A program made the position numbers and the translations under genes. Shown piece by piece: positions 5,689-23,710 of a DNA stretch of 64,000 nucleotides (its first letter is position 1; each line of letters opens with the position of its first letter). This DNA is from Teretinema zuelzerae (lineage in GTDB: Bacteria; Spirochaetota; Spirochaetia; Treponematales; Treponemataceae). Where the stretch lies: positions 620,001 through 684,000 of the forward strand of contig NZ_JAINWA010000001.1 of NCBI RefSeq assembly GCF_021021555.1, given 5' to 3'. The notes under the pieces were generated by a model that saw only the letters and a list, made by a program, of their open reading frames with translations, was not told the origin of the DNA and did not search any database.

Positions 5689-5806
5689 TTAAGGGGACCT
5701 CTAAAAACTTCAGTTTTTAGAGGTCTACCTTAATGTATGTGTAAATCCTGTAAGGATTTACAAAGGCCCCGAGGAAAACTAACCGAGTTTTTCGAGGTGC
5801 CCTTAA
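5689..5806. repeat. Block of nested hairpins bounded by 13-bp inverted repeats
   Basis: TTAAGGGGACCTC (5689-5701) and GAGGTGCCCTTAA (5794-5806) are inverted repeats with one mismatch. Between and overlapping them are a perfect 13-bp hairpin (5696-5708 with 5713-5725), a perfect 9-bp hairpin (5741-5749 with 5753-5761) and an imperfect hairpin (about 5765-5800). The kinase stop codon at 5803-5805 lies inside the right arm. It may act as a terminator or intercistronic processing element, or be a small palindromic repeat element. Confidence 0.75.
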
Positions 5807-8800
5807 TTAAAAGCACTGTCGAGGAAGAACGAGCCCAGAGTACGTGACGGATTCTTTTTTGCCTCGTACGCGGCCTTCAGATACAACGCCGCGACCTTGT
5901 CGTCGGGATCAATCGCCGTGACAGTCGCGAAGGCGGCGGCGGCGTCTTCAATAGAGTCGGCGTAAAAGGACTGGACAGCCTGATTGAATAATTGCAGCGT
6001 TTCAGTCTTTCTCCGTTCGAATAAGAGCTCGGAAACCTCGAGGGGAGTTTTGCGGCCCTTCATCCTGATGCGCCCGACGAATCGAGACGGAACTCCCGTA
6101 AAGTCCCCGAGCGAGGCAGTGGAGACAAGAGCGCAAGTATGCAGCTGCCGGGTCAGAGATTCGAGGCGGATGGAGAGCGATACCGTCTCGGAGAACAAGC
6201 CCGCTTCCACATGGCTGCCCTCGCCGATCAACGCAAGCGTGACAAGTCCCCGGTGAATTCCCATCCCGAAATCGACAGGAGCATAAGCGCAGTTGGAGCG
6301 ATGGCCGTTATATACATCCAATTCAAGGCGCAGCGCCTCTGCGGCGCGAAGGGCGTCCGTCGCCGATCCGGGAAAGAGCGCGAGCAGGCCGTCGCCTACA
6401 TACCGGTCCACGAAACCGCCGTGATCTCGGATTATCGGAGCGAATCGCGACAGGTACGAATTAAAAAATTTCAAACCCTCCTCGGGCGAAAGGCCTTCGG
6501 TAAAGGAGGTGAAGGCGCGCAAATCCGAATACAGGACGGTCATTTCCTTTCTTGCCATCGAACCCACTTCCAAGTCCGAGCCGACCTCTTCCTTCACCAG
6601 CTTCAGGAAATCAGCCGGTACGAAACGCTGTTCGGAATCATAAATCCGTTTCAGGAGAAGATGGCTGCGAATGCGGGCCAATAATTCCTGGCGCGAGAAC
6701 GGTTTTGTGATGAAATCATTTGCGCCGAGGCTGAAACCCTGAAGAAGATCGTCGATCCGGTTTTTCGCCGTCAGCAACAATACAGGCAGTTCGGCGCTCG
6801 AGCAGGTTTTCCGTATCTCGACAAGCGCCTCGTATCCGTTCATGCCGGGCATCATAATATCAAGCAAAACCATGTCAGGGCAAACTCCCTGGTCAAGCAG
6901 CGAAAGAAGCTCGTTCCCGCCGGAAAGAGAAACACCCTTATAGCCCGATGAGGAGAGCGCATTCATCAGTATCTGCCTGTTCGTAGACTCGTCGTCAACG
7001 ACTAATACCAGGGGCATATCGGAAGGCTTTGCTACGCGAAGAGCGGAATGAGCGTCGTCCTCATCGGTGAAGCCTCCGGGAACGGAAAGCATCGAACGCG
7101 GAGGAACCCTGAAGAATGCGTTTTCCTCATCCTCGGTGCCGTCGGAGAGAGGCAGGGCGACGGTGAAAAGAGAACCCTTCCCGACTTCGGATTGAACCGT
7201 AATGCTTCCGTTCTGCAGCGCGGCCAGTTCGGCGGCTATGGTGAGCCCGAGCCCTGTTCCGCCGTATCGGCGGGAAAGCCCGCCGTCGGCCTGTTGAAAA
7301 GACTCGAATATCAACTCCTGTTTATCTGCCGGTATTCCGATTCCGGAATCAGCGATCTCTATGCAAAGAAGCCCCCCCGATTCGCGGGCGGAAAGAGAAA
7401 CCCAGCCTGATTCGGTGAACTTCAACGCGTTGCCGAGCAGATTATAGAGAATCTGCTCCAGACGGGCGGGATCAGCGTAGACGGGAGAAAGTCCGTCGAT
7501 CTTGTCCATCCGTAATTCAATACCCCGGGAAAGAGCGTTCACCGAGAAAAATTCGCACACCGGCTCTGCGACTGTCCAGAAATCGACTGATCTGGGGAAT
7601 ACCGCAAGTTTTCCGTTTCGCAACCGGGCATGGTCGAGAATATCGTTTACCAGGGAAAAAAGGCGCCTCCCGCTTGAAGAGACCAGATCGAGCTGATGCA
7701 GCTGTTCAGGGCTCAAAGGGCCCTTGTCCCCGGCGGCAAGGCTTTCGGTGATGCCGATGATCCCGTTCAAGGGCGTTTTCAGCTCATGGCTCGTATTCGC
7801 GAGAAATTCATCCTTCATGCGGTCCATTTCAAGAAGAGCTTCTGTTTTCTCGGCAAGAGTGCCGGAAAGAGTTTCGACTTCCGCGAAGGCCCGGGAAAAA
7901 CGTCTGGCCAAGATAAAAGACTGAAACAGGAAGCACATCCAGACAGCCGTTCCCAGGTAATACGTCGGTCCGGCGATCTGAAGCGAAACAAGGGCGTCGT
8001 GTATTCCGATAACCATGATGAACAGCATGGCTATGAACACCAGCCCGGCTTCGTTCTGTTTCTTGACAAGAGCGTACAAGGCCATCCAGAAAGAAAAGAT
8101 CAACCCGAAAATGATGAATATATCCCGCACGCCGCCGAGAACCGAAATGTACGGATCGAGAAAAGGAATATAGTACAAAAGGCCGAGCACAATAGACTGG
8201 AGAACGAACACGCGCAGAAACCATTTGAATTTCTCTTGGGGAAAGAGGCTGTAGATATAGAGAAGAAACAGCGGCAGCAACGGATAGATTCCGAAAGCCT
8301 GAAGCAAATCCCAGACATACACGGTCAGCGAAGGGAATAGCGTAAAAACGAGCTTCGACCCTCCGACCATGAGCTGTCGAAAGACCATGAAAAGGGCGAA
8401 CAAGCCGAGATACAAGGGAGTTTTATCCTTGGTACGGAATACAAACAGAACAAGAAGATAGAGGCCCATAAACCCGAGAGAACCTGCCAACAAGAGATCC
8501 CACATCCGTTCGACGAAAGAAATATGGCTTATCGTCTCCCAGGAGCCGATTACGGGCGGCCTTCCGAGCCCTCCGTGGGTTTTATATTCGTAATTCGTTA
8601 CCTGAACAATGATTTCGAGCGACTCTGCGCCCCGGGGAGCGAAATAAAACGAAGTGCGCGCGGCGTTTCCCCGTTCGTCGGATCGGGAAGTTCCAATGAC
8701 CCCGTGTTCATAGGCCAGTTCGCCGTTTATCCACACGCGATAGGCCGAATACACCGACATAAAACGGATGCCGAGGATTTCAGGAAAAGGAGTCTCGCTG

Positions 8801-9081
8801 CGAAATACCTGACGATAGGTGCCCTTTCCGTAGGCGGAATACCCTTTTTTTGACCAAAAATCAGGAATAAACCGCGCGTCAGGAATAGGCTGAGCCTGAG
8901 GATCGAGAAATTGAGACGGGTACAAGAGCTGGTCCCAGTAAAAATCCCAGTCAGCGCCGAGCTCGACGGTTTCGCCGCTATCCCAGTCGGCTGCATTCAA
9001 CAGTCTGGATTCGGCGTCTGCGGCGGCACAAAAAATCGCCGTAATAAATATAATTGCGCAGGCAATTCGTCGCTTTGTCAT
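5803..9081 (-). CDS. 7TM-DISM hybrid histidine kinase with receiver and class III cyclase-like domain
   Basis: 1092-residue membrane sensor starting at ATG 9081, which gives a signal peptide (MTKRRIACAIIFITAIFCAA). Order: extracellular 7TMR-DISM ligand domain (about 25-190), seven membrane helices (about 195-395), a coiled coil, HisKA with NTSHELKTPLNG (His432), HATPase with the GTGLGL box, a receiver with LLDIMMPGMNG, a class III nucleotide-cyclase domain, and a TPR-like tail. Both cyclase metal aspartates are visible (YSDLRAF, VGDGLLALF). Other catalytic positions differ from the usual pattern: VDRYVGD instead of DKxxGD, and SETVSLSIR instead of DTVNxAxR. Cyclase activity is therefore uncertain. 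It is divergent from the receiver at 9217, a likely partner. Confidence 0.92.
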   Translation of the reverse strand: MTKRRIACAIIFITAIFCAAADAESRLLNAADWDSGETVELGADWDFYWDQLLYPSQFLDPQAQPIPDARFIPDFWSKKGYSAYGKGTYRQVFRSETPFPEILGIRFMSVYSAYRVWINGELAYEHGVIGTSRSDERGNAARTSFYFAPRGAESLEIIVQVTNYEYKTHGGLGRPPVIGSWETISHISFVERMWDLLLAGSLGFMGLYLLVLFVFRTKDKTPLYLGLFALFMVFRQLMVGGSKLVFTLFPSLTVYVWDLLQAFGIYPLLPLFLLYIYSLFPQEKFKWFLRVFVLQSIVLGLLYYIPFLDPYISVLGGVRDIFIIFGLIFSFWMALYALVKKQNEAGLVFIAMLFIMVIGIHDALVSLQIAGPTYYLGTAVWMCFLFQSFILARRFSRAFAEVETLSGTLAEKTEALLEMDRMKDEFLANTSHELKTPLNGIIGITESLAAGDKGPLSPEQLHQLDLVSSSGRRLFSLVNDILDHARLRNGKLAVFPRSVDFWTVAEPVCEFFSVNALSRGIELRMDKIDGLSPVYADPARLEQILYNLLGNALKFTESGWVSLSARESGGLLCIEIADSGIGIPADKQELIFESFQQADGGLSRRYGGTGLGLTIAAELAALQNGSITVQSEVGKGSLFTVALPLSDGTEDEENAFFRVPPRSMLSVPGGFTDEDDAHSALRVAKPSDMPLVLVVDDESTNRQILMNALSSSGYKGVSLSGGNELLSLLDQGVCPDMVLLDIMMPGMNGYEALVEIRKTCSSAELPVLLLTAKNRIDDLLQGFSLGANDFITKPFSRQELLARIRSHLLLKRIYDSEQRFVPADFLKLVKEEVGSDLEVGSMARKEMTVLYSDLRAFTSFTEGLSPEEGLKFFNSYLSRFAPIIRDHGGFVDRYVGDGLLALFPGSATDALRAAEALRLELDVYNGHRSNCAYAPVDFGMGIHRGLVTLALIGEGSHVEAGLFSETVSLSIRLESLTRQLHTCALVSTASLGDFTGVPSRFVGRIRMKGRKTPLEVSELLFERRKTETLQLFNQAVQSFYADSIEDAAAAFATVTAIDPDDKVAALYLKAAYEAKKNPSRTLGSFFLDSAFN

Positions 9082-9088
9082 ACACTCG

Positions 9089-9094
9089 ATTATA
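9089..9094 (-). promoter_or_regulatory. -10 box of a probable leaderless promoter for the 7TM-DISM kinase
   Basis: A perfect TATAAT reads on the minus strand at 9094-9089 and ends 7 bases before ATG 9081. There is no Shine-Dalgarno between them, and the -35 region is poor. The spacing predicts a transcript starting at or next to the start codon. Confidence 0.5.
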
Positions 9095-9216
9095 CCATTA
9101 ATTGTACAGTTTACTATACGACCGGAAAAATAAACGAACAGAAACGCAAAAAAAAAGAAGCGATAGCGGTAGGCAAGCCGATGAGTTATACTGTACTGCA
9201 AACGGAGGAGCATAAA

Positions 9217-12126: not shown

Positions 12127-14460
12127 ATGCCTAAAAGTATCGATGAGGAAACGTTGGAAATCCTCTTGTCCTTTGTGGCAGAAGGGTATGAACGGCTTGA
12201 CGACGCCGAAGCTCAATTGGCTCACCTTGAGGAAGGCGAGACGGAAAGCAGGCTTCACTCGATATTCCGTTTATTCCATTCGGTAAAAGGATCGGCGGGA
12301 TATCTCGGCCTCAACAATATTCAAAAACTCACGCACGAAGCGGAAACCCTTCTGGACGTATTCCTTAAGGAAAAGAAGCCCCTTGCGCAGGACGCCGTCG
12401 ACGTCATCTATGAAACAGTAGACATACTTCGGACTCTGATAACGCTTGTGGAAAAGGAATTCTGCGATGACGACGGAGAGCAGAAAGCCGGCGAACAAAC
12501 TGAAAAGATCAAAGCGCAGATTTCTCTGATACGCGGCGGAGCGGCGGCGGCGCCGGCAAATCCGGGAAACGCGTCATCCCCTTCCGCTTCCCCGGCGAGC
12601 GAGAAGCAGGAAGGGGCGGCAGCTGAGCATTCTCACAAAAGCGACTCCCCGAAAGAGGAACCGCTTCCGGCAAATGAAATCCTTCTGGGCGACCTCGTCA
12701 CGGCGGACATGGTTCAGCGGTTCATAGGAGAATGCGCCGATCTTCTGGACAAGGGCGAAAGCATTCTGCTCAGCCTCGATCCGAAAGAAAACAACACGGA
12801 TAAAATTCATGAAATTTTCCGCGCGGTTCACACGATAAAGGGGAACGCGGGGTTCTTCGGGTATGCGCTGATGGAGCGGCTCTGCATGGAATTCGAGACC
12901 CTCCTGGACGATGCGAGAAAAACTCCCGGCGCCCTGGGAGAAGCGAGGATAAACGCGTCGATCAAAACCGTGGATTATCTGAGGGAACTGCTCTCCGGCC
13001 TGCAAGTCGTTTCAACGGCTCAACCGGCTCAAAGGCCGGATGCTTCTTCCGAACAAGACGCTGCACCGCAGAAGAAACCTTCGCTTCCGGAGTATAAACC
13101 CCTTGGAGAGATTCTCGTCGGAATGGGAGCGGCCGATAGGAATGCGATCCAGGAAGCCCTCGACGAACAGGAACGATCGCTGGGCGAGATACTCGTGCAA
13201 AAGGGAATCGTTCCTCCGGAAAAAGTCGACGAAGCGCTCAAGCTTCAGGGAGAGGGTTTAAAGAAGAACCAATCGGATTCGGCCGGAGAAATCGTCAGAA
13301 AAGAAATCAGGGTCGATACCAACAAGCTCGACAAGCTCTTTGAACTGGTCGGCGAACTCATCACCGCCGAATCGATGGTGATGAACAACGCGGATCTTGC
13401 GGGCCTCGCGCAGGATAGCTTTACGAAGGCCTTCTCCCGGCTCAACAAGATCAGCCGGGAGATTCAGGAAACGACGATGATGATCCGAATGATTCCCCTC
13501 GACGGCCTCTTTCAGAAAATGGCTCGCCTCGTCAGGGATCTCTCGCGCAAAATGGACAGGCCGATCAAACTCGCCGTCTCCGGCCAGGATACCGAGATGG
13601 ACAAAAACGTCATCGAGCAGATATCCGATCCTCTGGTTCATATCCTCCGGAACGCCATCGATCATGGAATCGAACCGAAGGATAAAAGAATCGCCTCCGG
13701 AAAAGACGAAACAGGCAGCATCAAGCTCAACGCTAAATACGAAGGCTCGGAAATCTGGATCAGCGTGCAGGACGACGGAGCCGGATTGGATCGAGATAAA
13801 ATTCTGGCGAAGGCGATCGAACGCGGGCTGCTCAAGGGAGACCCTGCTTCCTTCAAGGATCAGGATATTTTCTCCTGCATTTTCGAACCGGGCTTTTCAA
13901 CCGCGGCGATAGTATCAGACGTTTCGGGCCGGGGAGTCGGAATGGACGTCGTCAAACGGAACCTCGATAAAATCAGGGGGCGGATAGACATTAAAACGAC
14001 GCCCGGAGCCGGAACGGAGTTCATCTTGGCCATCCCCCTCACCATGGCAATCATCGACGGCATTACCGTGCGCGCCGGCGCGAACCGATACTCGCTTCCC
14101 CTCGCTGAAATTCTCGAGTTCGTAAAGATTCAGGACAGTCAGATTTCGCGTACGGGAACAGGAGAAGAAACCGTCAACATACGGAACGATTTTCTGCCGC
14201 TTATCAGACTGCACGAAGTTTTCAACATCGAAGGAGCAGTCACCGAGCCGGCCGATGGAATCCTCATCGTAATGCAGAACAACGGAAGACGGGCCTGCCT
14301 CCTCATCGACGAGGTAATCGGCAACCAGCAGATCGTCGTAAAATCTCTTTCCGAATATCTCGGAAAGGTAGACGGCATTTCCGGCTGCAGCATCCTCGGA
14401 GACGGAGGAGTCAGCTTTATTATAGATACGGGAAAACTGATGTCGCTGCGTCTTGAGTGA
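12127..14460 (+). CDS. cheA: Chemotaxis histidine kinase CheA with two Hpt domains and an MshEN-like insert
   Basis: 777-residue cytoplasmic kinase that phosphorylates CheY and CheB in response to receptors. ATG 12127 follows CAGGAG. Two Hpt (P1-type) domains are visible: LFHSVKGSAGYLG (His51) and FRAVHTIKGNAGFFG (His235). Residues about 325-374 hold two 24-residue units of the form LGEIL-x3-G-x6-(I/V)-x3-L-x2-Q, resembling the T2SSE N-terminal/MshEN module. The standard core follows: P3 dimerisation (DKLFELVGELITAESMV), ATPase (HILRNAIDHGIEP, GRGVGMDVVK) and CheW-like P5. I see no obvious P2 CheY-docking domain; the MshEN-like part and linkers occupy that space. It heads a tightly packed che operon. 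Confidence 0.96.
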   Translation: MPKSIDEETLEILLSFVAEGYERLDDAEAQLAHLEEGETESRLHSIFRLFHSVKGSAGYLGLNNIQKLTHEAETLLDVFLKEKKPLAQDAVDVIYETVDILRTLITLVEKEFCDDDGEQKAGEQTEKIKAQISLIRGGAAAAPANPGNASSPSASPASEKQEGAAAEHSHKSDSPKEEPLPANEILLGDLVTADMVQRFIGECADLLDKGESILLSLDPKENNTDKIHEIFRAVHTIKGNAGFFGYALMERLCMEFETLLDDARKTPGALGEARINASIKTVDYLRELLSGLQVVSTAQPAQRPDASSEQDAAPQKKPSLPEYKPLGEILVGMGAADRNAIQEALDEQERSLGEILVQKGIVPPEKVDEALKLQGEGLKKNQSDSAGEIVRKEIRVDTNKLDKLFELVGELITAESMVMNNADLAGLAQDSFTKAFSRLNKISREIQETTMMIRMIPLDGLFQKMARLVRDLSRKMDRPIKLAVSGQDTEMDKNVIEQISDPLVHILRNAIDHGIEPKDKRIASGKDETGSIKLNAKYEGSEIWISVQDDGAGLDRDKILAKAIERGLLKGDPASFKDQDIFSCIFEPGFSTAAIVSDVSGRGVGMDVVKRNLDKIRGRIDIKTTPGAGTEFILAIPLTMAIIDGITVRAGANRYSLPLAEILEFVKIQDSQISRTGTGEETVNIRNDFLPLIRLHEVFNIEGAVTEPADGILIVMQNNGRRACLLIDEVIGNQQIVVKSLSEYLGKVDGISGCSILGDGGVSFIIDTGKLMSLRLE

Positions 14461-14503
14461 CGCATAAAACAAAAAAGATGATTCAAGAAAACAGGAGGAC
14501 TAA

Positions 14504-16861
14504 ATGAAAATCCTAGCTAAGCTCCTTTCCAGCTTTATCGCAGTCGCCGCGCTCTGCGTCCTGGTCGGATACGTCGGCCTCGATCGAATGGAAAACGCGA
14601 AAGAAGGGCTGACCGTCCTATCGAAAGAAACTATTCCCAAGCTCATGTACGTAAACACCATCGACCTGAGCCTGCGGGAAGTAATCAACTCGGTCCGCAC
14701 CATGGCGAATCCGTACGCCATGGATGATGAAGACTTCTTCAACGAACTTCAGAAAGATGTCGCGGAAGGCAGAAAAAACTATGCGGAGGCTCGCGAAGAA
14801 TTTGAAAAGCTTCCGATGAACGACGAGGAGATGAAGCTCTACAAGGCGGTATCCGACGCGATTCCTCCGGCGGTAGACTATAACAACCGGATCATGGTCC
14901 TCGTCGAAAAGGCGAAAACGGCGGCTCCTGAAGACCGCGAAGAATACACTGAACGCGCGTACGCCCTCATTTCCGGTTCGGAAGGAAAGGTCATAGACGA
15001 TCTCATTGAACGGTTCGAAGAGCTGCTCGAATTCGTGCAATACCATTACGGCAAGGAAATGACCGATGGAATTCTCAACCAGGTCGTTCTGGGCCGGATA
15101 GCGATACTCGTAATCGGAGCTCTCTCCTGCATCGCGGCGATCATCCTCGGAGCTATCCAGGGCACAAGCATTTCAGGAAAACTCGGAAAAACGGTTCGCA
15201 TCATGGACAAGATCGCCCACGGAGATCTGAGCGAAACGTTGACGATTAAAACATCGGATGAATTCAAGCAGGTCGCCGAATCGCTGAACAACGTAGAAAA
15301 AAACGTAAAAGCCCTCGTCGCGGACACCGGAGATCTGGTGAAGAACGCGATTGCGGGAAACCTCGGCTACCGGGCCCAGGCGCAGTCGCATGAAGGCGAA
15401 TACCGGCGGGTCATCGAAGGAATCAATGAAACGCTCGACGCAGTCGTAAGCCCGCTCAATCTCGCGGCCGATTACGTAGACCGCATCGCACAGGGAAATC
15501 TTCCTGAAAAAGTGATGGAAGTCTGGAGCGGAGATTTCAACAAAATCAGGAACAACCTCAATCTCGCCATCGACAGTATCAACGCTCTGATCGAGGATTC
15601 AGCACAGCTTACCGAGGCGGCGGTTGCAGGATCGCTGCAAGTCCGGGCGGACGTATCGAAGCATCAGGGCGATTATCGAAAGATTATCGAAGGAGTCAAC
15701 AAGACGCTCGATCTGGTCATCACGCCGATAAACGAGGTGATAGAAGTGCTCAAGAATCTCGCGGAAGGCGATTTGACGAGGAGAGTCGCCGGCGACTACC
15801 GCGGAGACTTCGACATTCTCAAGAGCGCCCTGAACGAATCGATCGAGGCGATCGGAGACACGCTAAGCCAGGTGAACACCGCTGTCGAGCAGGTTGCGGA
15901 AGGCTCTGTGCAGGTTTCGCAGGCGAGCCAGGCCCTTTCCCAGGGGGCGACCGAACAGGCTTCCTCGCTTGAAGAGATCACGTCGTCTACGACCGAGATA
16001 TCCAGCCAAACCCGACAGAACACGGACAACGCGCTCAAGATGAACAGCCTCGCCGGCGAAGCGCAGGAAAACGCCGAAAAAGGCAACGCCCAGATGAAGG
16101 AGCTCGTATCCGCGATGAGCGATATCAATACAAGCGCGGAAAGCATCAAAAAGGTCGTCAATACGATCGACGATATTTCCTTCCAGATCAACCTCCTCGC
16201 GCTCAATGCGAACGTAGAAGCGGCGCGGGCGGGAAAATACGGAAAAGGATTCGCCGTCGTCGCCGAGGAAGTAAGAAATCTTGCCGTCAGAAGCGCGAGC
16301 TCGGTCAAAGATACTACGCGCATGGTGGACGAAGCGATCGGAAACATACAGCGCGGCAACACGCTTGTTTCTAATACCGCGAGCCAGCTCGACGAAATCG
16401 TGATAGGTTCCGCCCAGGTTTCGGCTCTTGCCGAAGAAGTGGCCACGGCGGGACGCGAACAGACGCAGGGGCTCGAGCAGATTTCTCTCGGTCTTACGCA
16501 AATAGATCAGGTGACGCAGAGCAACACGGCCAGCGCGGAGGAAAGCGCGTCCGCGTCGGAGGAGCTCTCCTCGCAGGCGCAGCAGGTCAAGGCCATGCTT
16601 GCCCGCTTCAAGCTCAAGGATTCAGGACGGGACGGCGGATTCGCGGCCCCTGCCCTCTCGTCTCGCGCAGGTTCGCAAACAGCGGCCGCCCAGCCCGGCT
16701 TCTTGAATCGTACGAAACCGGCTCCCGGCGCGGCTTCCGCCTCCGCCGATCAGCTTCGAAGGAATGCTGCTCCCGCTGCGGCTGCAGTCAAAAAAACGGC
16801 CGCACGCGTTGTACCTTCGGACATCATCTCGCTGGATGATGGCAATTTCGGCAAGTTCTGA
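14504..16861 (+). CDS. Methyl-accepting chemotaxis protein with tandem HAMP-like units
   Basis: 785-residue receptor with ATG 14504 after AGGAGG. It has a membrane segment at about 8-27, a periplasmic four-helix-bundle-type sensor (about 28-185), a second span at about 190-212, then several HAMP-like repeats with a recurring pattern (GNLPEKV, EGDLTRRV, NETLDAVVSPLN, NKTLDLVITPIN). The cytoplasmic hairpin tip is well conserved (FQINLLALNANVEAARAG, GFAVVAEEVRNLAVRSA). Gln/Glu pairs flanking it fit methylation by the CheR encoded downstream. The sensor has no recognisable ligand domain, so the stimulus is unknown. The alanine-rich tail lacks a clear CheR-tethering pentapeptide. Confidence 0.95.
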   Translation: MKILAKLLSSFIAVAALCVLVGYVGLDRMENAKEGLTVLSKETIPKLMYVNTIDLSLREVINSVRTMANPYAMDDEDFFNELQKDVAEGRKNYAEAREEFEKLPMNDEEMKLYKAVSDAIPPAVDYNNRIMVLVEKAKTAAPEDREEYTERAYALISGSEGKVIDDLIERFEELLEFVQYHYGKEMTDGILNQVVLGRIAILVIGALSCIAAIILGAIQGTSISGKLGKTVRIMDKIAHGDLSETLTIKTSDEFKQVAESLNNVEKNVKALVADTGDLVKNAIAGNLGYRAQAQSHEGEYRRVIEGINETLDAVVSPLNLAADYVDRIAQGNLPEKVMEVWSGDFNKIRNNLNLAIDSINALIEDSAQLTEAAVAGSLQVRADVSKHQGDYRKIIEGVNKTLDLVITPINEVIEVLKNLAEGDLTRRVAGDYRGDFDILKSALNESIEAIGDTLSQVNTAVEQVAEGSVQVSQASQALSQGATEQASSLEEITSSTTEISSQTRQNTDNALKMNSLAGEAQENAEKGNAQMKELVSAMSDINTSAESIKKVVNTIDDISFQINLLALNANVEAARAGKYGKGFAVVAEEVRNLAVRSASSVKDTTRMVDEAIGNIQRGNTLVSNTASQLDEIVIGSAQVSALAEEVATAGREQTQGLEQISLGLTQIDQVTQSNTASAEESASASEELSSQAQQVKAMLARFKLKDSGRDGGFAAPALSSRAGSQTAAAQPGFLNRTKPAPGAASASADQLRRNAAPAAAAVKKTAARVVPSDIISLDDGNFGKF

Positions 16862-16876
16862 TAACGGAGGCGCAGA

Positions 16877-17419
16877 ATGTCTGAACAAAGAAGAACCGAC
16901 GCCCACGATGATTTCCTCATCGACGACGAAGACAATGAAGATACGCAGGCGAACAAATACCTGTTCTTCCGCATCGGCAAGGAATCCTACGGAGTAGGCA
17001 TACGGCACGTGATTGAAATCATCGAATTGCAGCCGATTTCGGCGGTTCCCGACATGCCCTCGTATGTGAAAGGCGTCATCAATCTTCGGGGCAAAGTAAT
17101 CCCCATAGTAGATTTGAGGCTCCGCTTCCGTATAGACGAACGGGATTACGACAATCGAACCTGCATAATCGTCACAGAGGTGGAGCGGGTACAGGTCGGA
17201 TTCGTAGTCGACACCGTCGAGGAAGTGCTCGAGATTCCGGAGAAGAACATCGAGCCGCCGCCGAAATTCAGAACGATGCAAGGACAGGACAGATATCTTT
17301 CCGGAATGGCGAAATCGGGAGAGTCCATCAAGATTCTCGTCGATGTAGAAAAGCTCGTTCAGGACGAAAACCTGGGCGACTCTGTTCTCGCGCAGACAGC
17401 GGAAAGCCCGAGCTCATGA
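16877..17419 (+). CDS. cheW: Chemotaxis coupling protein CheW
   Basis: 180-residue adaptor that links receptor tips to CheA. ATG 16877 follows GGAGGCG. The CheW fold begins at about residue 25 after an acidic leader (DDFLIDDEDNEDTQ). Diagnostic segments are KYLFFRIGKESYGVGI, ISAVPDMPSYVKGVINLRGK, VIPIVDLRLRF and VEEVLEIPEKNIEPPP. It overlaps cheR by four bases (ATGA), so translation is probably coupled. Confidence 0.96.
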   Translation: MSEQRRTDAHDDFLIDDEDNEDTQANKYLFFRIGKESYGVGIRHVIEIIELQPISAVPDMPSYVKGVINLRGKVIPIVDLRLRFRIDERDYDNRTCIIVTEVERVQVGFVVDTVEEVLEIPEKNIEPPPKFRTMQGQDRYLSGMAKSGESIKILVDVEKLVQDENLGDSVLAQTAESPSS

Positions 17420-18276
17420 TGGAAGACCTCGTGCCTCTTTCGGACACGGAATTTAATATCCTCACGCGCATGCTCTTCGATCGCTTCGGCATTCATCTGG
17501 GCGATCAGAAGCGGGTGTTGCTGTCGGGAAGGTTGTCCAAAAGAGTGCGGGAAACGGGGTGCGGCAATTTTTCGGAATACATCGATTATCTCCGGACCGA
17601 TCCGAGCGGCAGGGAACAGACTGAGCTGATAAACAGGATCACTACGAATCACTCTTTTTTTTTCCGCGAGGGTGAACACTTTGCCTATTTGAAGGATAAC
17701 GTATTCTCCCGGATCGAAGAGGCTGTCTCGAAACGTTCTCCCCCTGCCGTGAGAATTTGGAGCGCAGGATGCGCAACCGGGGAGGAAGTATATACGATTG
17801 CGATGCTCATGCGTTCGCATTTCGGAAACAGGATAGACGGACTGGACATAGGACTTCTCGCCACGGACATATCAGTGGCGGCGCTCTCGCAGGCAAACGA
17901 AGGAATCTATCAGGAGAGCAAGTTGAAAGAGCTTCCGGGCGAATGGAAGCGGCAATGGTTCACCAAGGCAGGGCCGGACCAGTTCCGCATAAGCGATGAA
18001 ATCCGCGGCATGGTGCTCTTTAAAAAACTCAACCTCATGGAGACTCCGTATCCCATGAAGGGCTCGTTCGACGTGATATTCTGCAGAAACGTCATGATCT
18101 ATTTTAACGCGCAATCCCGGGAACATGTAGTGAACGCGATGCACAAATGCCTCAAGCCCGGCGGCGTTTTCTTCGTCGGTCATTCTGAATCGTTGAACAG
18201 GGAGACGTGTCCGTTCGAATACGTTAAGCCCGCTATTTATAAAAAAGGAGAGGGAGACCGTGGGATCAAGCCTTAA
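17416..18276 (+). CDS. cheR: Chemoreceptor methyltransferase CheR
   Basis: 286-residue SAM-dependent enzyme that methylates receptor glutamates. It starts within the cheW stop (ATGA); a second ATG follows at 17419. The N-terminal helical CheR domain includes FDRFGIHLGDQKRVLLSGRL and NHSFFFREGEHF. The methyltransferase domain shows WSAGCATGEEVYTIAM and DVIFCRNVMIYF, followed by HKCLKPGGVFFVGHSESL. The C-terminal end overlaps the GTG start of the next gene by 17 bases. Confidence 0.96.
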   Translation: MMEDLVPLSDTEFNILTRMLFDRFGIHLGDQKRVLLSGRLSKRVRETGCGNFSEYIDYLRTDPSGREQTELINRITTNHSFFFREGEHFAYLKDNVFSRIEEAVSKRSPPAVRIWSAGCATGEEVYTIAMLMRSHFGNRIDGLDIGLLATDISVAALSQANEGIYQESKLKELPGEWKRQWFTKAGPDQFRISDEIRGMVLFKKLNLMETPYPMKGSFDVIFCRNVMIYFNAQSREHVVNAMHKCLKPGGVFFVGHSESLNRETCPFEYVKPAIYKKGEGDRGIKP

Positions 18277-19078
18277 ACAGAAAAAAATGAAAATAGTGAC
18301 CGTCGCGAACCAAAAAGGCGGCGTAGGCAAAACCTCGTCTATCATTCAATTAGCAAGCGGACTCGCGAAACGCGGCGAGCGGGTGCTTGCCGTAGACGGC
18401 GATCCCCAGGGAAATTTAAGCCTTTTTTTCGGCGCCGCGGAAGGGCAGACCTTCGGTCAAGCTGCCGGCCAGACTAAAATCCCGGGATTCCACGATCTTC
18501 TCGCCTCGATCGAAAACGGAAAGCCGTCTCTGAAAAACTCGATCAGAAAAAGCGTTCGCCGCCGTCTCGACCTCATACCTTTCACCGACAGGGATTTCAG
18601 AATCAATTTCGCGGACGACAGGATTCGCAATTTGAAGGATCCGTTCGCGAAGGTCCTCTCGAAGGCCGCAAATTTCTACGACTGGATACTGATCGATTCG
18701 TCGCCTTCCAACAGCTGTCTTGAACGCCTCCTCGTAGAAGCGTCCGACGCGGTGATCATTCCCCTGGAATTCCAGCTGTTTTCGGTATCCGGTCTCGAAG
18801 CGAGCATTCAGGAAGTGGATGCCTGCTCGCAGGAATGCGGACGAGGGATTGAAGTCCACTCGCTCCTCTTCACCAAGGCTGAAAACAGGCTCAACCGCGT
18901 ACAGGACTATCGGCGCGTTTTTTCAACCTTCAGGATACCGATTTTCGAAGTCTGCAAATCGGAATATATGAGCAGGTCGCTGGAAAAATCCCGGACAATC
19001 TGGGAGTGCGGCCCCTCGAGCAACGCCGCGAAAGATTACGCGAGAATTATAGAAAAATCTTTTCTGGAGATTGTATGA
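18260..19078 (+). CDS. ParA/MinD-family ATPase in the chemotaxis operon
   Basis: 272-residue P-loop ATPase with the deviant Walker A motif NQKGGVGKTSSI near residue 20, Walker A' aspartate in AVDGDPQGN, and DWILIDSSPS as Walker B. GTG 18260 is preferred over ATG 18288 because GGAGAGGGAG precedes it and nothing precedes the ATG. ParA-type proteins in other che clusters (ParC of Vibrio, PpfA of Rhodobacter) place or segregate chemoreceptor arrays. Position inside cheR-cheB makes that role likely here. No parB or parS-like partner lies nearby, which argues against chromosome partition. Confidence 0.88.
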   Translation: MGSSLKQKKMKIVTVANQKGGVGKTSSIIQLASGLAKRGERVLAVDGDPQGNLSLFFGAAEGQTFGQAAGQTKIPGFHDLLASIENGKPSLKNSIRKSVRRRLDLIPFTDRDFRINFADDRIRNLKDPFAKVLSKAANFYDWILIDSSPSNSCLERLLVEASDAVIIPLEFQLFSVSGLEASIQEVDACSQECGRGIEVHSLLFTKAENRLNRVQDYRRVFSTFRIPIFEVCKSEYMSRSLEKSRTIWECGPSSNAAKDYARIIEKSFLEIV

Positions 19079-19653
19079 ACGTCAAAAAAGGATCGAACCG
19101 GCTCGAACAAATAGCGGGAAATGTGTCCTTGGCCCTCGGCGCGCAGGAAGGCGGGGGAGAAGAATCGGCGTACGAATTTTCAACAGCGTACCGGGGGATG
19201 CGTCCCGCCGATCTACTCGGCGAATGGGAAGTGGTCGGCCATACCTGGAACGGATCTCCCTGGAGCGAGGTATTCGCCCAATCCGCCTTTAAGGACATGG
19301 AAGCGCCGAAGCTCGACTACGACGCGATGTATTCGTTCTCCGTCGGAATCTGCGTCAAGCGGATACGCTTGACCGGCTCGCCCATTTTTCCGGGCGCCGA
19401 CGCACCCTGCGCTTGGGAATACCGCATGACTACAGCTCTCACCTGGGAACTGAAAAACGACGAACTCATAGCAAAGCCGCTTATCGGTTATCAATACACT
19501 GCGATAGACGGAGCGCCTTCCCAAGTACGCGAATTGCCGGGAGAAGGCGCGTCCATGACGCTGAAAATCCGGATGGACGACGGAGAACTCGTCATTGAAG
19601 ACGGATCCGACATTAAACGGCTCAGGAAGGCCGCTCATGAGCAAAAAGATTAA
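19075..19653 (+). CDS. Unknown protein of the chemotaxis operon (192 aa)
   Basis: Starts at ATG 19075 inside the stop of the ParA gene (ATGA) and overlaps cheB by 17 bases, so it is surely translated with the operon. It has no signal peptide or membrane span. After a short helical start it has a beta-rich core with many aromatic residues (DLLGEWEVVGHTWNGSPW, SFSVGICVKRIRLTG, WEYRMTTALTWELKNDEL, LKIRMDDGELVIEDGSD), as in small lipocalin-like or FABP-like barrels. I do not recognise a family. Its place next to the ParA-type ATPase makes it a candidate partner that links the ATPase to the receptor array; that is inference. Confidence 0.8.
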   Translation: MNVKKGSNRLEQIAGNVSLALGAQEGGGEESAYEFSTAYRGMRPADLLGEWEVVGHTWNGSPWSEVFAQSAFKDMEAPKLDYDAMYSFSVGICVKRIRLTGSPIFPGADAPCAWEYRMTTALTWELKNDELIAKPLIGYQYTAIDGAPSQVRELPGEGASMTLKIRMDDGELVIEDGSDIKRLRKAAHEQKD

Positions 19654-20740
19654 AGTTCTCGTAGTCGACGATTCAGCCATCGCTCGGGAAATGCTCGTAC
19701 GCGGCTTGTCGCGAAAACCCGATATAGAAATAATCGCGCAGGCAGGAGACGCGTACGAGGCGAGAGACCATATAGTCCTGTCGGCGCCGGACGTCATGAC
19801 GCTCGACGTAGAAATGCCGCGCATGGACGGCATCGAATTTCTGAAAAGGCTCCTCCCCCAGTATCCCATTCCGGTGGTAGTGGTCTCCGCCCTTACGGCG
19901 GAAGGCTCTAAAAAAGCCCTCGAGGCAATGCAGGCCGGAGCGATGGGAGTAGTGGCGAAACCGCGGGGAAGAACTCCCGGCGATTTAGAGCGCATGATAG
20001 AGGAACTCGCGGAACAGATCAGGGAAGCATCCATCGCAGACATCGGAAAACAAACGAAGCGCGAAGAATTTCCGAAATCTACTTCTCCGTTGCGTAGCCC
20101 TCCGCCCGGAAAAAGCGGAACTAGCGGATCAAAAGACAACCGGGACCGGATGATCGCAATCGGCGCTTCGACCGGAGGAACCGTCATACTCAACTACCTC
20201 GTATCGCGTTTTCCTCAAGACATGCCCGGAACCGTCATCGTTCAGCACATGCCCCCTGTTTTCACCAGGCTGTTCGCCGAATCCCTCAATAGAGAGTCGA
20301 AGGTGGAAGTACGCGAAGCGGCGGACGGAGACGAAATCAGGCAGGGGCTCGTTCTCGTCGCGCCCGGAGATTTTCAGCTCAAGGTCGTGAAAAAAGGCAA
20401 AGGCTGGGCTGTCTCGATCGCACCGGGCGATAAGGTATCGGGACATCGGCCTTCGGTCGACGTGCTGTTCTCGTCGGTTGCAGAAGCCGCCGGGCCGAAC
20501 GCCGCAGGATTGATCCTTACGGGCATGGGCCGCGACGGAGCGGACGGTCTTTTGGATATGAGGCGCAGCGGAGCGCGCTGCTTTGCGCAAAACGAAGAAA
20601 GCGCCGTCGTATTCGGAATGCCCCGTGAAGCCGCGGAAAACGGAGCCGCGGAGCGCCTTCTCTCCCCCGAGGAAATGGTTCCCGCCCTCTATTCGGATTT
20701 TCGCAAACCTGCGTCCGCGCCGCAAAGGACCCGCCGTTGA
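19637..20740 (+). CDS. cheB: Chemoreceptor glutamate methylesterase/deamidase CheB
   Basis: 367-residue response regulator-esterase. ATG 19637 has AGGAAGG ahead of it and gives a normal receiver start (MSKKIKVLVVDDSAIAREML). The phosphoacceptor Asp is in VMTLDVEMPRMDG. After a linker, the esterase domain shows the catalytic Ser (IGASTGGT), His (VIVQHMP) and Asp (GMGRDGADGL). It removes methyl groups from receptors, opposing CheR, and is activated by CheA. It overlaps the unknown gene upstream by 17 bases and cheD downstream by four. Confidence 0.96.
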   Translation: MSKKIKVLVVDDSAIAREMLVRGLSRKPDIEIIAQAGDAYEARDHIVLSAPDVMTLDVEMPRMDGIEFLKRLLPQYPIPVVVVSALTAEGSKKALEAMQAGAMGVVAKPRGRTPGDLERMIEELAEQIREASIADIGKQTKREEFPKSTSPLRSPPPGKSGTSGSKDNRDRMIAIGASTGGTVILNYLVSRFPQDMPGTVIVQHMPPVFTRLFAESLNRESKVEVREAADGDEIRQGLVLVAPGDFQLKVVKKGKGWAVSIAPGDKVSGHRPSVDVLFSSVAEAAGPNAAGLILTGMGRDGADGLLDMRRSGARCFAQNEESAVVFGMPREAAENGAAERLLSPEEMVPALYSDFRKPASAPQRTRR

Positions 20741-21216
20741 GCATGTTAACCGTCGGAATCGGAGAATGGATAGTCTCGAAAAATCCCGAAGACGTGATCA
20801 AGACGTACGCTCTCGGCTCCTGCGTCGCAGTCATGATTTACGACGTCAAGCTTGCGGTCGGCGGCATGATTCACATCGCGCTTCCTGAAGCCTCGATAGA
20901 CATAGAAAAGTCCAAAAGACAGCCCGGCTATTTCGCCGACACAGGCCTGCCGCTCATGATAGAAGAAATGAAAAAGCTCGGATGCGTCCGCATGTCGGTT
21001 CGCGTCAAGATTGCGGGAGGGGCTTCGGTCATGGACGATCGGGGATTCTTCGACATAGGGAAGCGCAATTTGCTCGCAGTGAAAAAAATACTCTGGAAAA
21101 GCAGTCTGGGAGCGGTCGGAGAAGACACCGGAGGAGAGATCAGCCGCACGGTTTCGCTTCGCGTCTGCGACGGAGAAACGATTCTCAATTCAGGCCAGCG
21201 GGAATGGACTATTTAG
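20737..21216 (+). CDS. cheD: Chemoreceptor glutamine deamidase CheD
   Basis: 159 residues from TTG 20737, or 157 from ATG 20743. The AAGGA at about 20725 is better spaced for TTG. The catalytic Cys is in YALGSCVAVMIYD and the catalytic His in GGMIHIALPE; KIAGGASVM is also typical. CheD deamidates receptor glutamines and, in some bacteria, is controlled by binding the phosphatases CheC or CheX. A CheX-type gene lies two genes downstream. Confidence 0.95.
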   Translation: MSMLTVGIGEWIVSKNPEDVIKTYALGSCVAVMIYDVKLAVGGMIHIALPEASIDIEKSKRQPGYFADTGLPLMIEEMKKLGCVRMSVRVKIAGGASVMDDRGFFDIGKRNLLAVKKILWKSSLGAVGEDTGGEISRTVSLRVCDGETILNSGQREWTI

Positions 21217-21234: not shown

Positions 21235-21624
21235 ATGAAGACATATCGAAAAATATTGATAGTGGACGACTCCCCGACCTCGCGCATGATCATACAAAGA
21301 TGCTTCGAGATGATAGGCGCTGAAGCCGGCGAATATCTCTACGCGGAAAACGGAATCGAAGGACTCACCATCGCCGGAGACGAAAAGGAAATAGACCTTG
21401 TCTTTTCCGACATCAATATGCCGAAAATGGACGGAAAAACATTCATCAAGCTGCTGCGCAACAAACCGGAAACGGCGAACATTCCGGTAATCATCACGTC
21501 GAGCATCGCGGACAGCGTCGCAGAAGCGGAATTGAAGGAGCTTTCAATTTCCGGATACATCAAAAAACCTGTTTCGCCGGAAAAAATAATGCATATTCTG
21601 GGAGGCGTCGATGTGCGATCCTGA
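21235..21624 (+). CDS. cheY: Chemotaxis response regulator CheY
   Basis: 129-residue receiver with ATG 21235 after GAGGAG. Key residues are the acidic pair in VDDSPTS, phosphoacceptor Asp in LVFSDINMPKMDG, conserved Ser/Thr in IITSS and Lys in IKKPVS. No output domain. It overlaps the CheX-type gene by 14 bases and is the main CheY of this operon. Whether it binds the flagellar switch or another target is not visible. Confidence 0.93.
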   Translation: MKTYRKILIVDDSPTSRMIIQRCFEMIGAEAGEYLYAENGIEGLTIAGDEKEIDLVFSDINMPKMDGKTFIKLLRNKPETANIPVIITSSIADSVAEAELKELSISGYIKKPVSPEKIMHILGGVDVRS

Positions 21625-22102
21625 TGAAACGACCAAAATTACAACCATTTTGAAAGAGGCTGTATCTTCGGTTTTCGCCGAAGTGGCCTTCATCGATGTA
21701 GAAAAACCGCGATCCGTCGAAGCGCAGGAAGCAGACCTTGAAACTGCGGGAAAAACCGATTTGTTATGCGCGGCGATAGACGTTCTTTCTCCGCTTTCCT
21801 ATCGACTGGAAATACGCGTCGGGAAAAAACTTCTGGATAAAATCGTCGAGAATTTGTTTCCCGAAGGGGACCTGGAAAGCAGAAAAAAGAACGCGGAAGA
21901 CTCGCTCTTGGAAATGCTTAACATCATTGCCGGAAATTTCATCTCGGCGTTTTTCGGCGCGGGCAGCGAAACTCAGCTCGAGCTTCCCCGGTACCTGTAT
22001 TTCTCAGAAAAAGAAGGCGGAACGCCGGTGTGCGGGCTCTCCCTCGACGCCGAAGGAGAACCCGTCGAAGTGTTTCTGTATTCCGTCAGATACCGCTATT
22101 AA
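21611..22102 (+). CDS. cheX: CheX-type CheY-P phosphatase
   Basis: 163-residue protein of the CheX/CheC family, the usual CheY-P phosphatases of spirochaetes. The active-site helix is visible as EDSLLEMLNIIAGNFISAFF, which fits the E-x2-x-N pattern of CheX. It is followed by a beta segment that ends in EPVEVFLYSVRY. ATG 21611 follows GGAGG. Its last 17 bases overlap the convergent second cheY. Sequence is diverged, so CheX versus CheC cannot be fully settled. Confidence 0.82.
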   Translation: MCDPDETTKITTILKEAVSSVFAEVAFIDVEKPRSVEAQEADLETAGKTDLLCAAIDVLSPLSYRLEIRVGKKLLDKIVENLFPEGDLESRKKNAEDSLLEMLNIIAGNFISAFFGAGSETQLELPRYLYFSEKEGGTPVCGLSLDAEGEPVEVFLYSVRYRY

Positions 22103-22442
22103 TCGCGGCAAGAAGCGTGTCTTTCTGAAACGGTTTTATGATGAAGCCCTTCGCACCCAGCGACAAGGCTTCCTGCTTCAACGCGTCCTCGTCCTGCGTC
22201 GTCAGAACGAATACCGGAATATTCGCTATGGCAGGCATCGCTTTTCTGGCACGGAGGAATTCGATGCCGTTCATCTCGGGCATATTGATATCCAGCAGGA
22301 TGCAATCCACCGGCCCTGCCTTCAACGCGTCCAAAGCCATTTTACCGTTCTCGGCCTCCTCGACGGTATGGCCTGCCCCCTTCAGCGCGAGAGAAATAAT
22401 TTTTCTCATAGTCGCGGAATCGTCGACTGAAAGAAACTTCAT
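22086..22442 (-). CDS. Second CheY-type response regulator
   Basis: 118-residue receiver, MKFLSVDDSATMRKIISLAL, with phosphoacceptor Asp in CILLDINMPEMNG, Thr in VLTTQDED and Lys in IIKPFQ. ATG 22442 lies inside the stop of the upstream MCP-like gene (ATGA), with GGAGGTG for initiation. It is therefore co-expressed with that protein and convergent to the main che operon. It is closer to flagellar CheY in length than the product of 21235. It may be the response regulator served by the CheZ-like motif of its partner. Confidence 0.93.
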   Translation of the reverse strand: MKFLSVDDSATMRKIISLALKGAGHTVEEAENGKMALDALKAGPVDCILLDINMPEMNGIEFLRARKAMPAIANIPVFVLTTQDEDALKQEALSLGAKGFIIKPFQKDTLLAAINSGI

Positions 22443-23710
22443 ACATGCACCTCCATTAGCGCGGATTTTTCGCCCTTTGTTTTAGCGTTTTTTACTAAGT
22501 CGTCCCGAATCCGGGAGAACGTATTTTGAAGCCGGCTTCTGTCGATCAGAGCCGGATCGTGAGACAGCGTTTCATCGATAGTTTCTCGCAGACGCGACAG
22601 GATATCGCTTGCGCCTTCAATCATCTGCCGCGTAATGTCCTGGAATTGGAGAGCTTCCAGCACCGTGTCGAGATCGCGGTCTATCGACTCCGACATCAGA
22701 GCCACCTGCTTCGTCAGCGTTACCGACTCGTTGGCCGAAGCGATCAGCGATTCGACCGCGGACTCGGTCGCCTGCATTCCCTTGTCCGCCTGGGAGATTA
22801 CCGCGCCGGCCTTCTCTTCCATGTTATTGCACAACAGCTCGTTGTACTCGCGGAAGCGGCCGAGCATTTCGGCAACCTTCCGGGAAAACTCGAAGGTCTG
22901 CTCGTTCAGTCGATGAAGTTCCGTAATAATAACCTTGAAGCCCCTGCCCTTCTCGCCGATCCTGGCAGCCTCGATAGACATGTTGAAGGCTATCAGTTTC
23001 GACCGCTCGGTGATTTCGGTAATGCTCGATAACAGGCCGAGACCGCCTTCTATCTCCGCGCTCATCGCTGTCAGGTGCTCGCGGTTCTCGCGGAGAAAGC
23101 GGGAAAGATTTTGAATGACGGATCGTTCTTCCCGGACTGATAGCCTCGACCGTTCAGCGGTTCTATGCAGAGAAGACTCGCCGGAATCGTCCTCGAGCGA
23201 AACTCGAAGCTTCCGCGCCGCCTCGGCCGCGTCGGAAGAAGCGTTCCTTACCACCATGAATTTCTCTAGAACCGCAAAGGCGGCCTCCTCGGTTTTCGAA
23301 GGCACCGCGCGGATGATGGAATCGGCAAGCGGCACGAAAATAAGCGAATCGGTGAGAAGACGATTCGACAACACCGCAAGAAGCTTTTCAGCTTCCTTCA
23401 ATTTTAACGAAGTTTCAGCCAGCATAAGAGAGGACCCGGATTGCTCCGCTCCGGCGGATTCCGCGGTAGCTGCGAAAGAAGAACCGGAAACGCCTCCGGC
23501 CGATTCGGGATCTCCGCCGCGGGCGGCGAATTCGCTCGCAGGGGCGGAGGAGGATCTGAACAACAGGGCTGAAACGGCGGATACCCCCGCAATCGCGGAC
23601 AGAGAAGCCGCCGCGATAGACCCCGCGGGCGCTTTTAAAAGAATTGACGAGAGAACTGAAGCCGCGGAACACGCAGCGGCGATCGACATCATTATTACTT
23701 GGCGATTCAT
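22439..23710 (-). CDS. MCP-like membrane protein with degenerate signalling tip and CheZ-like motif
   Basis: 423 residues. Two hydrophobic segments near the N-terminus (about 5-25 and 30-52) leave almost no periplasmic loop, so there is no obvious external sensor. A long coiled coil carries a diverged receptor tip: IAFNMSIEAARIGEKGRGF, then KVIITELHRLNEQT where receptors have AVVAEEVRxLAxxS. Near the C-terminus LQFQDITRQMIEG (Asp358, Gln362) matches the CheZ phosphatase core FQDxTxQ, in which the Asp and Gln act on CheY-P. It is translationally coupled to a cheY. I infer a receptor-like scaffold that may dephosphorylate or bind that CheY. An ordinary degenerate receptor is the alternative. 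Confidence 0.82.
   Translation of the reverse strand: MNRQVIMMSIAAACSAASVLSSILLKAPAGSIAAASLSAIAGVSAVSALLFRSSSAPASEFAARGGDPESAGGVSGSSFAATAESAGAEQSGSSLMLAETSLKLKEAEKLLAVLSNRLLTDSLIFVPLADSIIRAVPSKTEEAAFAVLEKFMVVRNASSDAAEAARKLRVSLEDDSGESSLHRTAERSRLSVREERSVIQNLSRFLRENREHLTAMSAEIEGGLGLLSSITEITERSKLIAFNMSIEAARIGEKGRGFKVIITELHRLNEQTFEFSRKVAEMLGRFREYNELLCNNMEEKAGAVISQADKGMQATESAVESLIASANESVTLTKQVALMSESIDRDLDTVLEALQFQDITRQMIEGASDILSRLRETIDETLSHDPALIDRSRLQNTFSRIRDDLVKNAKTKGEKSALMEVHV

Follow-up and report, generated by a model that had tools for sequence, protein, structure and literature searches.

The window analyzed here, a stretch of 64,000 nucleotides from Teretinema zuelzerae, holds a chemotaxis locus in which two sets of genes converge. 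On the plus strand, Pfam matches define a che operon (12127–21216) encoding CheA, a methyl-accepting chemotaxis protein (MCP), CheW, CheR, a ParA-like protein, an unknown protein, CheB, and CheD, which continues into a cheY of 129 codons (21235–21624; Response_reg, 4.8e-21) and an overlapping cheX (21611–22102; CheX, 31.4 bits at a cut-off of 27). Facing this array on the minus strand is a gene pair: the gene of a 423-residue membrane protein with an MCP tip and CheZ-like segments (22439–23710) and a dedicated cheY of 118 codons (22086–22442; Response_reg, 4.6e-29), the end of which overlaps cheX by 17 bp. The stop codon of the first gene overlaps the start codon of this cheY as ATGA, just as the initial annotation had claimed, and the ribosome-binding site of cheY (GGAGGTG; 22448–22456, minus strand) lies within codons 419–421 of the upstream gene. 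The pair is translationally coupled. In most other spirochaete members of the family, the gene is likewise followed by this cheY orthologue; two (L151 and L155) have no cheY beside it. Regarding other features of the window, the gene of the ParA-like ATPase and its follower (19078–19653, no Pfam match) occupy 18284–19653 between cheR and cheB, are conserved as a pair in relatives (L056–L059), and perhaps form a system positioning the chemosensory array. A large hybrid sensor kinase with 7TM-DISM, HisKA, HATPase, receiver, and guanylate/adenylate cyclase domains is encoded at 5803–9213 on the minus strand.

The 423-residue protein had been annotated as an MCP-like protein with a diverged receptor tip, IAFNMSIEAARIGEKGRGF, and with D358 and Q362 near its end, all of which was borne out by the open reading frame and by Pfam. 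MCPsignal (PF00015) covers residues 213–352 with 52.2 bits (8.7e-14), above the cut-off of 34.6, and the signalling tip, recognized by Pfam and Foldseek, comprises residues 225–290 (22841–23038, minus strand) and contains SKLIAFNMSIEAARIGEKGRGFKVI. At the N-terminus, two hydrophobic helices (residues 2–54; 23549–23707, minus strand) are predicted to form a membrane hairpin, which would leave no space for a periplasmic sensor domain. This region is hydrophobic in the majority of long members and in every short member of the family. A full-length AlphaFold2 model based on 14 sequences (pLDDT 79.6, pTM 0.41, local confidence usable) places the two helices at residues 2–25 and 28–54, followed by a low-confidence stretch (54–92) and a single long hairpin with a helix break at residue 355, immediately ahead of FQD. 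Foldseek searches with this model retrieved cytoplasmic hairpins of MCPs (2ch7 and 3g67); CheZ was not among the best matches, which was expected, the hairpin being much longer. The motif FQDITRQ itself spans residues 356–362 (22625–22645, minus strand), with D358 encoded by GAC at 22637–22639 and Q362 by CAG at 22625–22627. The last conserved element is the C-terminal tail (residues 409–423; 22442–22486, minus strand), AKTKGEKSALMEVHV, with the consensus K-[TVI]-x-x-E-[KR] and almost invariant residues T411, E414, K415, and A417 in the family alignment. As the ribosome-binding site of cheY is encoded there, it accounts for the MEV part of the tail conservation. K-T-x-x-E-K is retained in L027 and L028 although no cheY follows the gene in these cases, and we therefore counted only K-T-x-x-E-K as a feature of the protein.

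Homologues were collected by searches of close relatives and of the phylum, which yielded 20 long spirochaete members with a complete motif region, three short members, and fragments, and further members were found in Gammaproteobacteria. The occurrence of orthologues in many genomes led us to reject a sequence artefact. Even at about 25% overall identity, the 20 long spirochaete members share FQDITRQ without a single change, and the three short members read FQDMTRQ, FQDLTRQ, and FQDSERQ, all keeping FQDxxxQ. The gammaproteobacterial members examined also carry FQDxxxQ. A lack of D358 and Q362 in homologues would, by its own terms, have refuted the initial annotation; both residues are invariant across the family. 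Pairwise identity averages 0.69 around FQD and 0.54 over the tip, with a minimum of 0.20 in the latter; in one group, the tip has drifted from EAAR to EEVK or EGVK and from GRGF to GRAI. Tip and FQD are 112 residues apart in all members with a locatable tip, both spirochaete and gammaproteobacterial. Among the other tip-bearing MCP frames examined from the T. zuelzerae genome, FQDxxxQ was not found; one frame (L015) does bear FQ[DE], though not within the signalling domain and with the Q missing. Presence in all spirochaete and all examined gammaproteobacterial members, together with absence from the other examined MCP frames, argues that the motif is not a chance occurrence. The same genus also harbors a paralogous MCP family (L002 at G000:C1:821344–822477, L031, L053, and L054), in which the tip is followed by LSPLxMLHAIITQEIENL, with an A-x3-Q-like pattern and no Asp. 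The tail of these paralogues, RxRLTTSRELDAL...DIEFF, resembles that of the gammaproteobacterial members, and they are possibly a non-catalytic cousin of the family.

CheZ is the CheY-P phosphatase of Proteobacteria and, to our knowledge, spirochaetes are thought to lack it and to rely on CheX. This view, also taken in the initial annotation, proved right as sampled, since none of 198 Spirochaetota genomes contained a PF04344 match above the cut-off and cheX is found next door in the window. The 423-residue protein gave the single match to PF04344 at E ≤ 1e-3 in the whole genome (residues 291–378, 20.7 bits, 4.2e-4), below the cut-off of 30.7 bits. The relationship was followed with CheZ profiles built from 22 CheZ proteins, bearing in mind that E-values of single profile–profile comparisons do not equal database E-values. 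In hhalign, the descending-helix segment matched CheZ with 91% (score 46), and the ascending-helix segment matched with 51% (score 31) in the correct register, VPLADSIIRAVPSKTEEAAFAVLEKF being aligned with E. coli CheZ. The latter match, which is of moderate strength, outlines a putative first CheZ-like helix at residues 130–155, ADSIIRAVPSKTEEAAFAVLEKFMVV (23246–23323, minus strand), which is retained in the short members; these align with CheZ over both helices in a collinear manner. Corresponding segments from 12 ordinary MCPs and four paralogues reached at most 1.6% (score ≤ 20). For the first helix, the 51% of the spirochaete segment compare with at most 0.3% in the larger MCP control set and with 14.5% for one segment in a small control set of three MCPs. 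Spirochaete and gammaproteobacterial whole-protein profiles align with 99.8% over 376 columns, and the gammaproteobacterial ascending helix, which reaches 0.3% against CheZ directly, is linked to it only through the spirochaete members. In the opposite direction, a profile of five gammaproteobacterial sequences searched against 274 genomes retrieved canonical CheZ genes among its weaker matches: nine of ten sampled matches of 248–276 amino acids carry FQD[LI]T[GS]Q and an LxSLGF end.

Comparison of helix geometry revealed a further likeness. Measured from D, the hydrophobic face that follows the motif lies at 192 degrees in the family versus 201 degrees in CheZ, and D and Q therefore point outward in both. 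Like CheZ, the family carries FQDxxxQ in the second helix of the hairpin, where D and Q lie across from the core, and has its gene beside cheY, and the profiles of both detect each other; a first helix of the [IL]P...TExA type, with [IL]PDA...TExAA as the CheZ pattern, may be a further likeness. The 423-residue protein differs from CheZ in scoring below the Pfam cut-off, in its two transmembrane helices, in the MCP tip between the helices, and in its tail: the CheY-binding peptide at the C-terminus of CheZ (...DDLLSSLGF) is absent and replaced by the tail described above. Because of the missing SLGF peptide and the Pfam score, we did not file the protein as CheZ. The CheZ profile search proposed with the initial annotation gave the only PF04344 match of the genome, below the Pfam cut-off, together with the hhalign matches above. 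The idea of a receptor scaffold fused to a phosphatase helix needs correction as well. Its CheZ-like motif stands, but the motif sits within the descending hairpin helix rather than on a helix added at the end, and the likeness probably spans two helices, with the partner on the ascending side and the MCP tip between them. From the sequences, the protein is best read as a CheZ-related membrane-bound hairpin bearing an MCP tip, the relatives of which are annotated solely as MCPs. Identity with the CheX/CheC type, which shares the CheY-P phosphatase function and adjoins the gene pair in the form of cheX, was rejected; its fold and motif (ExxN) are unrelated. A histidine kinase was considered and rejected, too.

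In some members of the family, the tip is naturally deleted. Three sister genomes carry, in the corresponding position (downstream of the EF-G gene, ahead of cheY, and converging with cheX), a gene whose product has about 195 residues and no MCP tip. These short forms keep the hydrophobic N-terminus, the TE helix (T-G in one), FQDxxxQ, the tail, and the ATGA overlap with cheY. A tree of CheB, CheD, and CheX groups the three genomes as a single clade within the long forms, with 100% for this split. The simplest reading is that the tip was lost once while the CheZ-like part persisted. AlphaFold gave a poor model of the short form (pLDDT 48.6), which lends no support to the CheZ-like reading. A tip-less form with a transmembrane region was also found in a Methylococcaceae genome (L073/L145). 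Alternatively, the protein might be an ordinary chemoreceptor without sensor, which would signal through CheA and in which FQDxxxQ would serve as a structural interruption of the coiled coil. The protein shares with MCPs (PF00015) the signalling tip, the long antiparallel hairpin, and the annotation, and such a receptor would agree with the MCPsignal score above the cut-off, the MCP fold matches, the canonical tip of the gammaproteobacterial members, and the helix break in the model. However, the 423-residue protein differs from MCPs in its small size (about 400 amino acids), in having neither a periplasmic sensor nor HAMP, and in a D-x3-Q site about 15 heptads below a tip that is dispensable in one clade. 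As that clade keeps FQDxxxQ, as D and Q are turned outward from the core, and as the motif was not found in the other examined MCPs of the genome, we consider an ordinary receptor distinctly unlikely.

The CheZ-type reading of D358 and Q362 is upheld by their conservation, the two-way profile comparison, the helix geometry, the pairing with cheY, and the retention after tip loss. Outward and conserved D and Q, constant pairing with a cheY orthologue, and retention in the short forms make a phosphatase of CheY-P the best explanation; as judged from sequence, the 423-residue protein is probably a CheZ-related phosphatase that is anchored in the membrane and acts on the CheY whose gene directly follows. 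CheZ and MCPs both dimerize into four-helix bundles. The protein's cytoplasmic part, a single long helical hairpin, would probably do the same. Near the base of this hairpin, the ascending helix (130–155) and the descending helix (approximately 340–380) would correspond to the two hairpin helices of CheZ, and the MCP tip would prolong the hairpin between them. D358 and Q362 may then act on CheY-P in the way of the Asp and Gln of D-x3-Q in CheZ, which are the phosphatase residues of that enzyme (PMC7750401). Likewise, the tip may attach the protein to the CheA/CheW array, comparable to E. coli CheZ, which is localized via its hairpin tip (PMC7750401). The activity would presumably be specific for the adjacent CheY, and the tail may play a role in CheY binding.

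As the genome also encodes CheX, the CheY-P phosphatase known from spirochaetes, a second phosphatase is not obviously needed. The phosphatase reading is also weakened by the two spirochaete members without a neighboring cheY, by the Pfam score and the missing SLGF peptide, by the ascending-helix result for the gammaproteobacterial members, and by the true CheZ present in most sampled gammaproteobacterial carriers of the gene. The protein could instead bind CheY-P without catalysis, its CheZ-derived face capturing CheY-P at the array, either as a sink or as an adaptor delivering CheY to CheA. A conserved outward face and pairing with cheY would look identical in this case, and CheX would be available for dephosphorylation. 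Nevertheless, D and Q are catalytic in CheZ (PMC7750401), their exact conservation over two phyla exceeds what binding seems to need, and the A-x3-Q-like paralogues suggest that the position of D can change, so that we consider binding alone unlikely. The overlap of the second cheY with cheX suggests that the cell holds two separate CheY/phosphatase pairs. A more elaborate version of the phosphatase would be regulated by signals, contact with CheA/CheW or the membrane state switching the D-x3-Q site via the tip or the base and making the protein receptor and phosphatase at once. The fixed spacing of 112 residues in two phyla suggests possible mechanical coupling of this kind; however, constant length may merely reflect coiled-coil packing or array height, and tip-less members exist, which leaves signal regulation very unlikely in our judgment.

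The protein is not an isolated fusion, as its family occurs in both Spirochaetota and Gammaproteobacteria; among the papers covered by literature searches, none was found to describe an MCP with a CheZ site. The gammaproteobacterial relatives are roughly 400 residues long and have a hydrophobic N-terminus, a TEEA helix, a canonical tip, LQFQDRxxQ, and a TTxEQxxNH tail, which the spirochaete tail resembles. Their gene is followed by cheY, often a STAS gene, and then cheA, mcp, cheW, cheR, cheD, and cheB, and true CheZ is also present in eight of ten sampled gammaproteobacteria carrying the family gene. By description, the McpA-like receptors (CttP/PA0180 and VCA1088) and VC1394 fit these relatives: two reports (PMC7184735, PMC7534058) describe a transmembrane region, no sensor domain, a position as first or neighboring gene of an F7/F9-type che cluster, and a conserved C-terminus with Val at the second position of the end motif, and the passages on these receptors mention no phosphatase motif. 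Membership of these receptors in the family is a lead only, drawn from topology, gene order, and C-terminal pattern. The role of these receptors is described as unclear (PMC7184735, PMC7534058), as is that of the conserved C-terminus of the McpA-like ones (PMC7184735), and the family would offer a concrete function for the latter.

As a tentative proposal, which we would place a little below even, the short membrane "chemoreceptors" of spirochaetes and gammaproteobacteria, probably including the McpA-like/VC1394 receptors of F7/F9 systems, may be array-docked CheY-P phosphatases that also share a common hairpin ancestor with CheZ, the MCP tip having either disappeared in the line toward soluble CheZ or been acquired from an MCP. 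If the 423-residue protein is such a phosphatase, spirochaetes would possess a membrane-bound enzyme of the CheZ type with a CheY of its own, and the hairpins of CheZ and of chemoreceptors would appear to be linked in evolution. Some "receptors" of unknown purpose may then be membrane-anchored off-switches, a possibility raised by an MCP-annotated family that carries the CheZ signature and geometry, nearly always with its own CheY, in two phyla. Regarding other gammaproteobacterial findings, a soluble protein of 168 amino acids (L128; L166 5964–6470) contains LQFQDRVNQ without transmembrane region or MCP tip; its gene is not located beside a che operon, and its genome also encodes true CheZ. 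Family members are furthermore found on plasmids: WP_320579541.1 of Pseudomonas sp. HR96 and WP_268015531.1 of Aeromonas sp. BC14 are plasmid-encoded and carry the annotation methyl-accepting chemotaxis protein. The plasmid of Pseudomonas sp. HR96 (L216; NZ_CP139142.1) carries a complete che operon, consisting of the family gene, cheY, STAS, cheA, mcp, cheW, cheR, cheD, and cheB, beside a VapC/Phd toxin–antitoxin pair.
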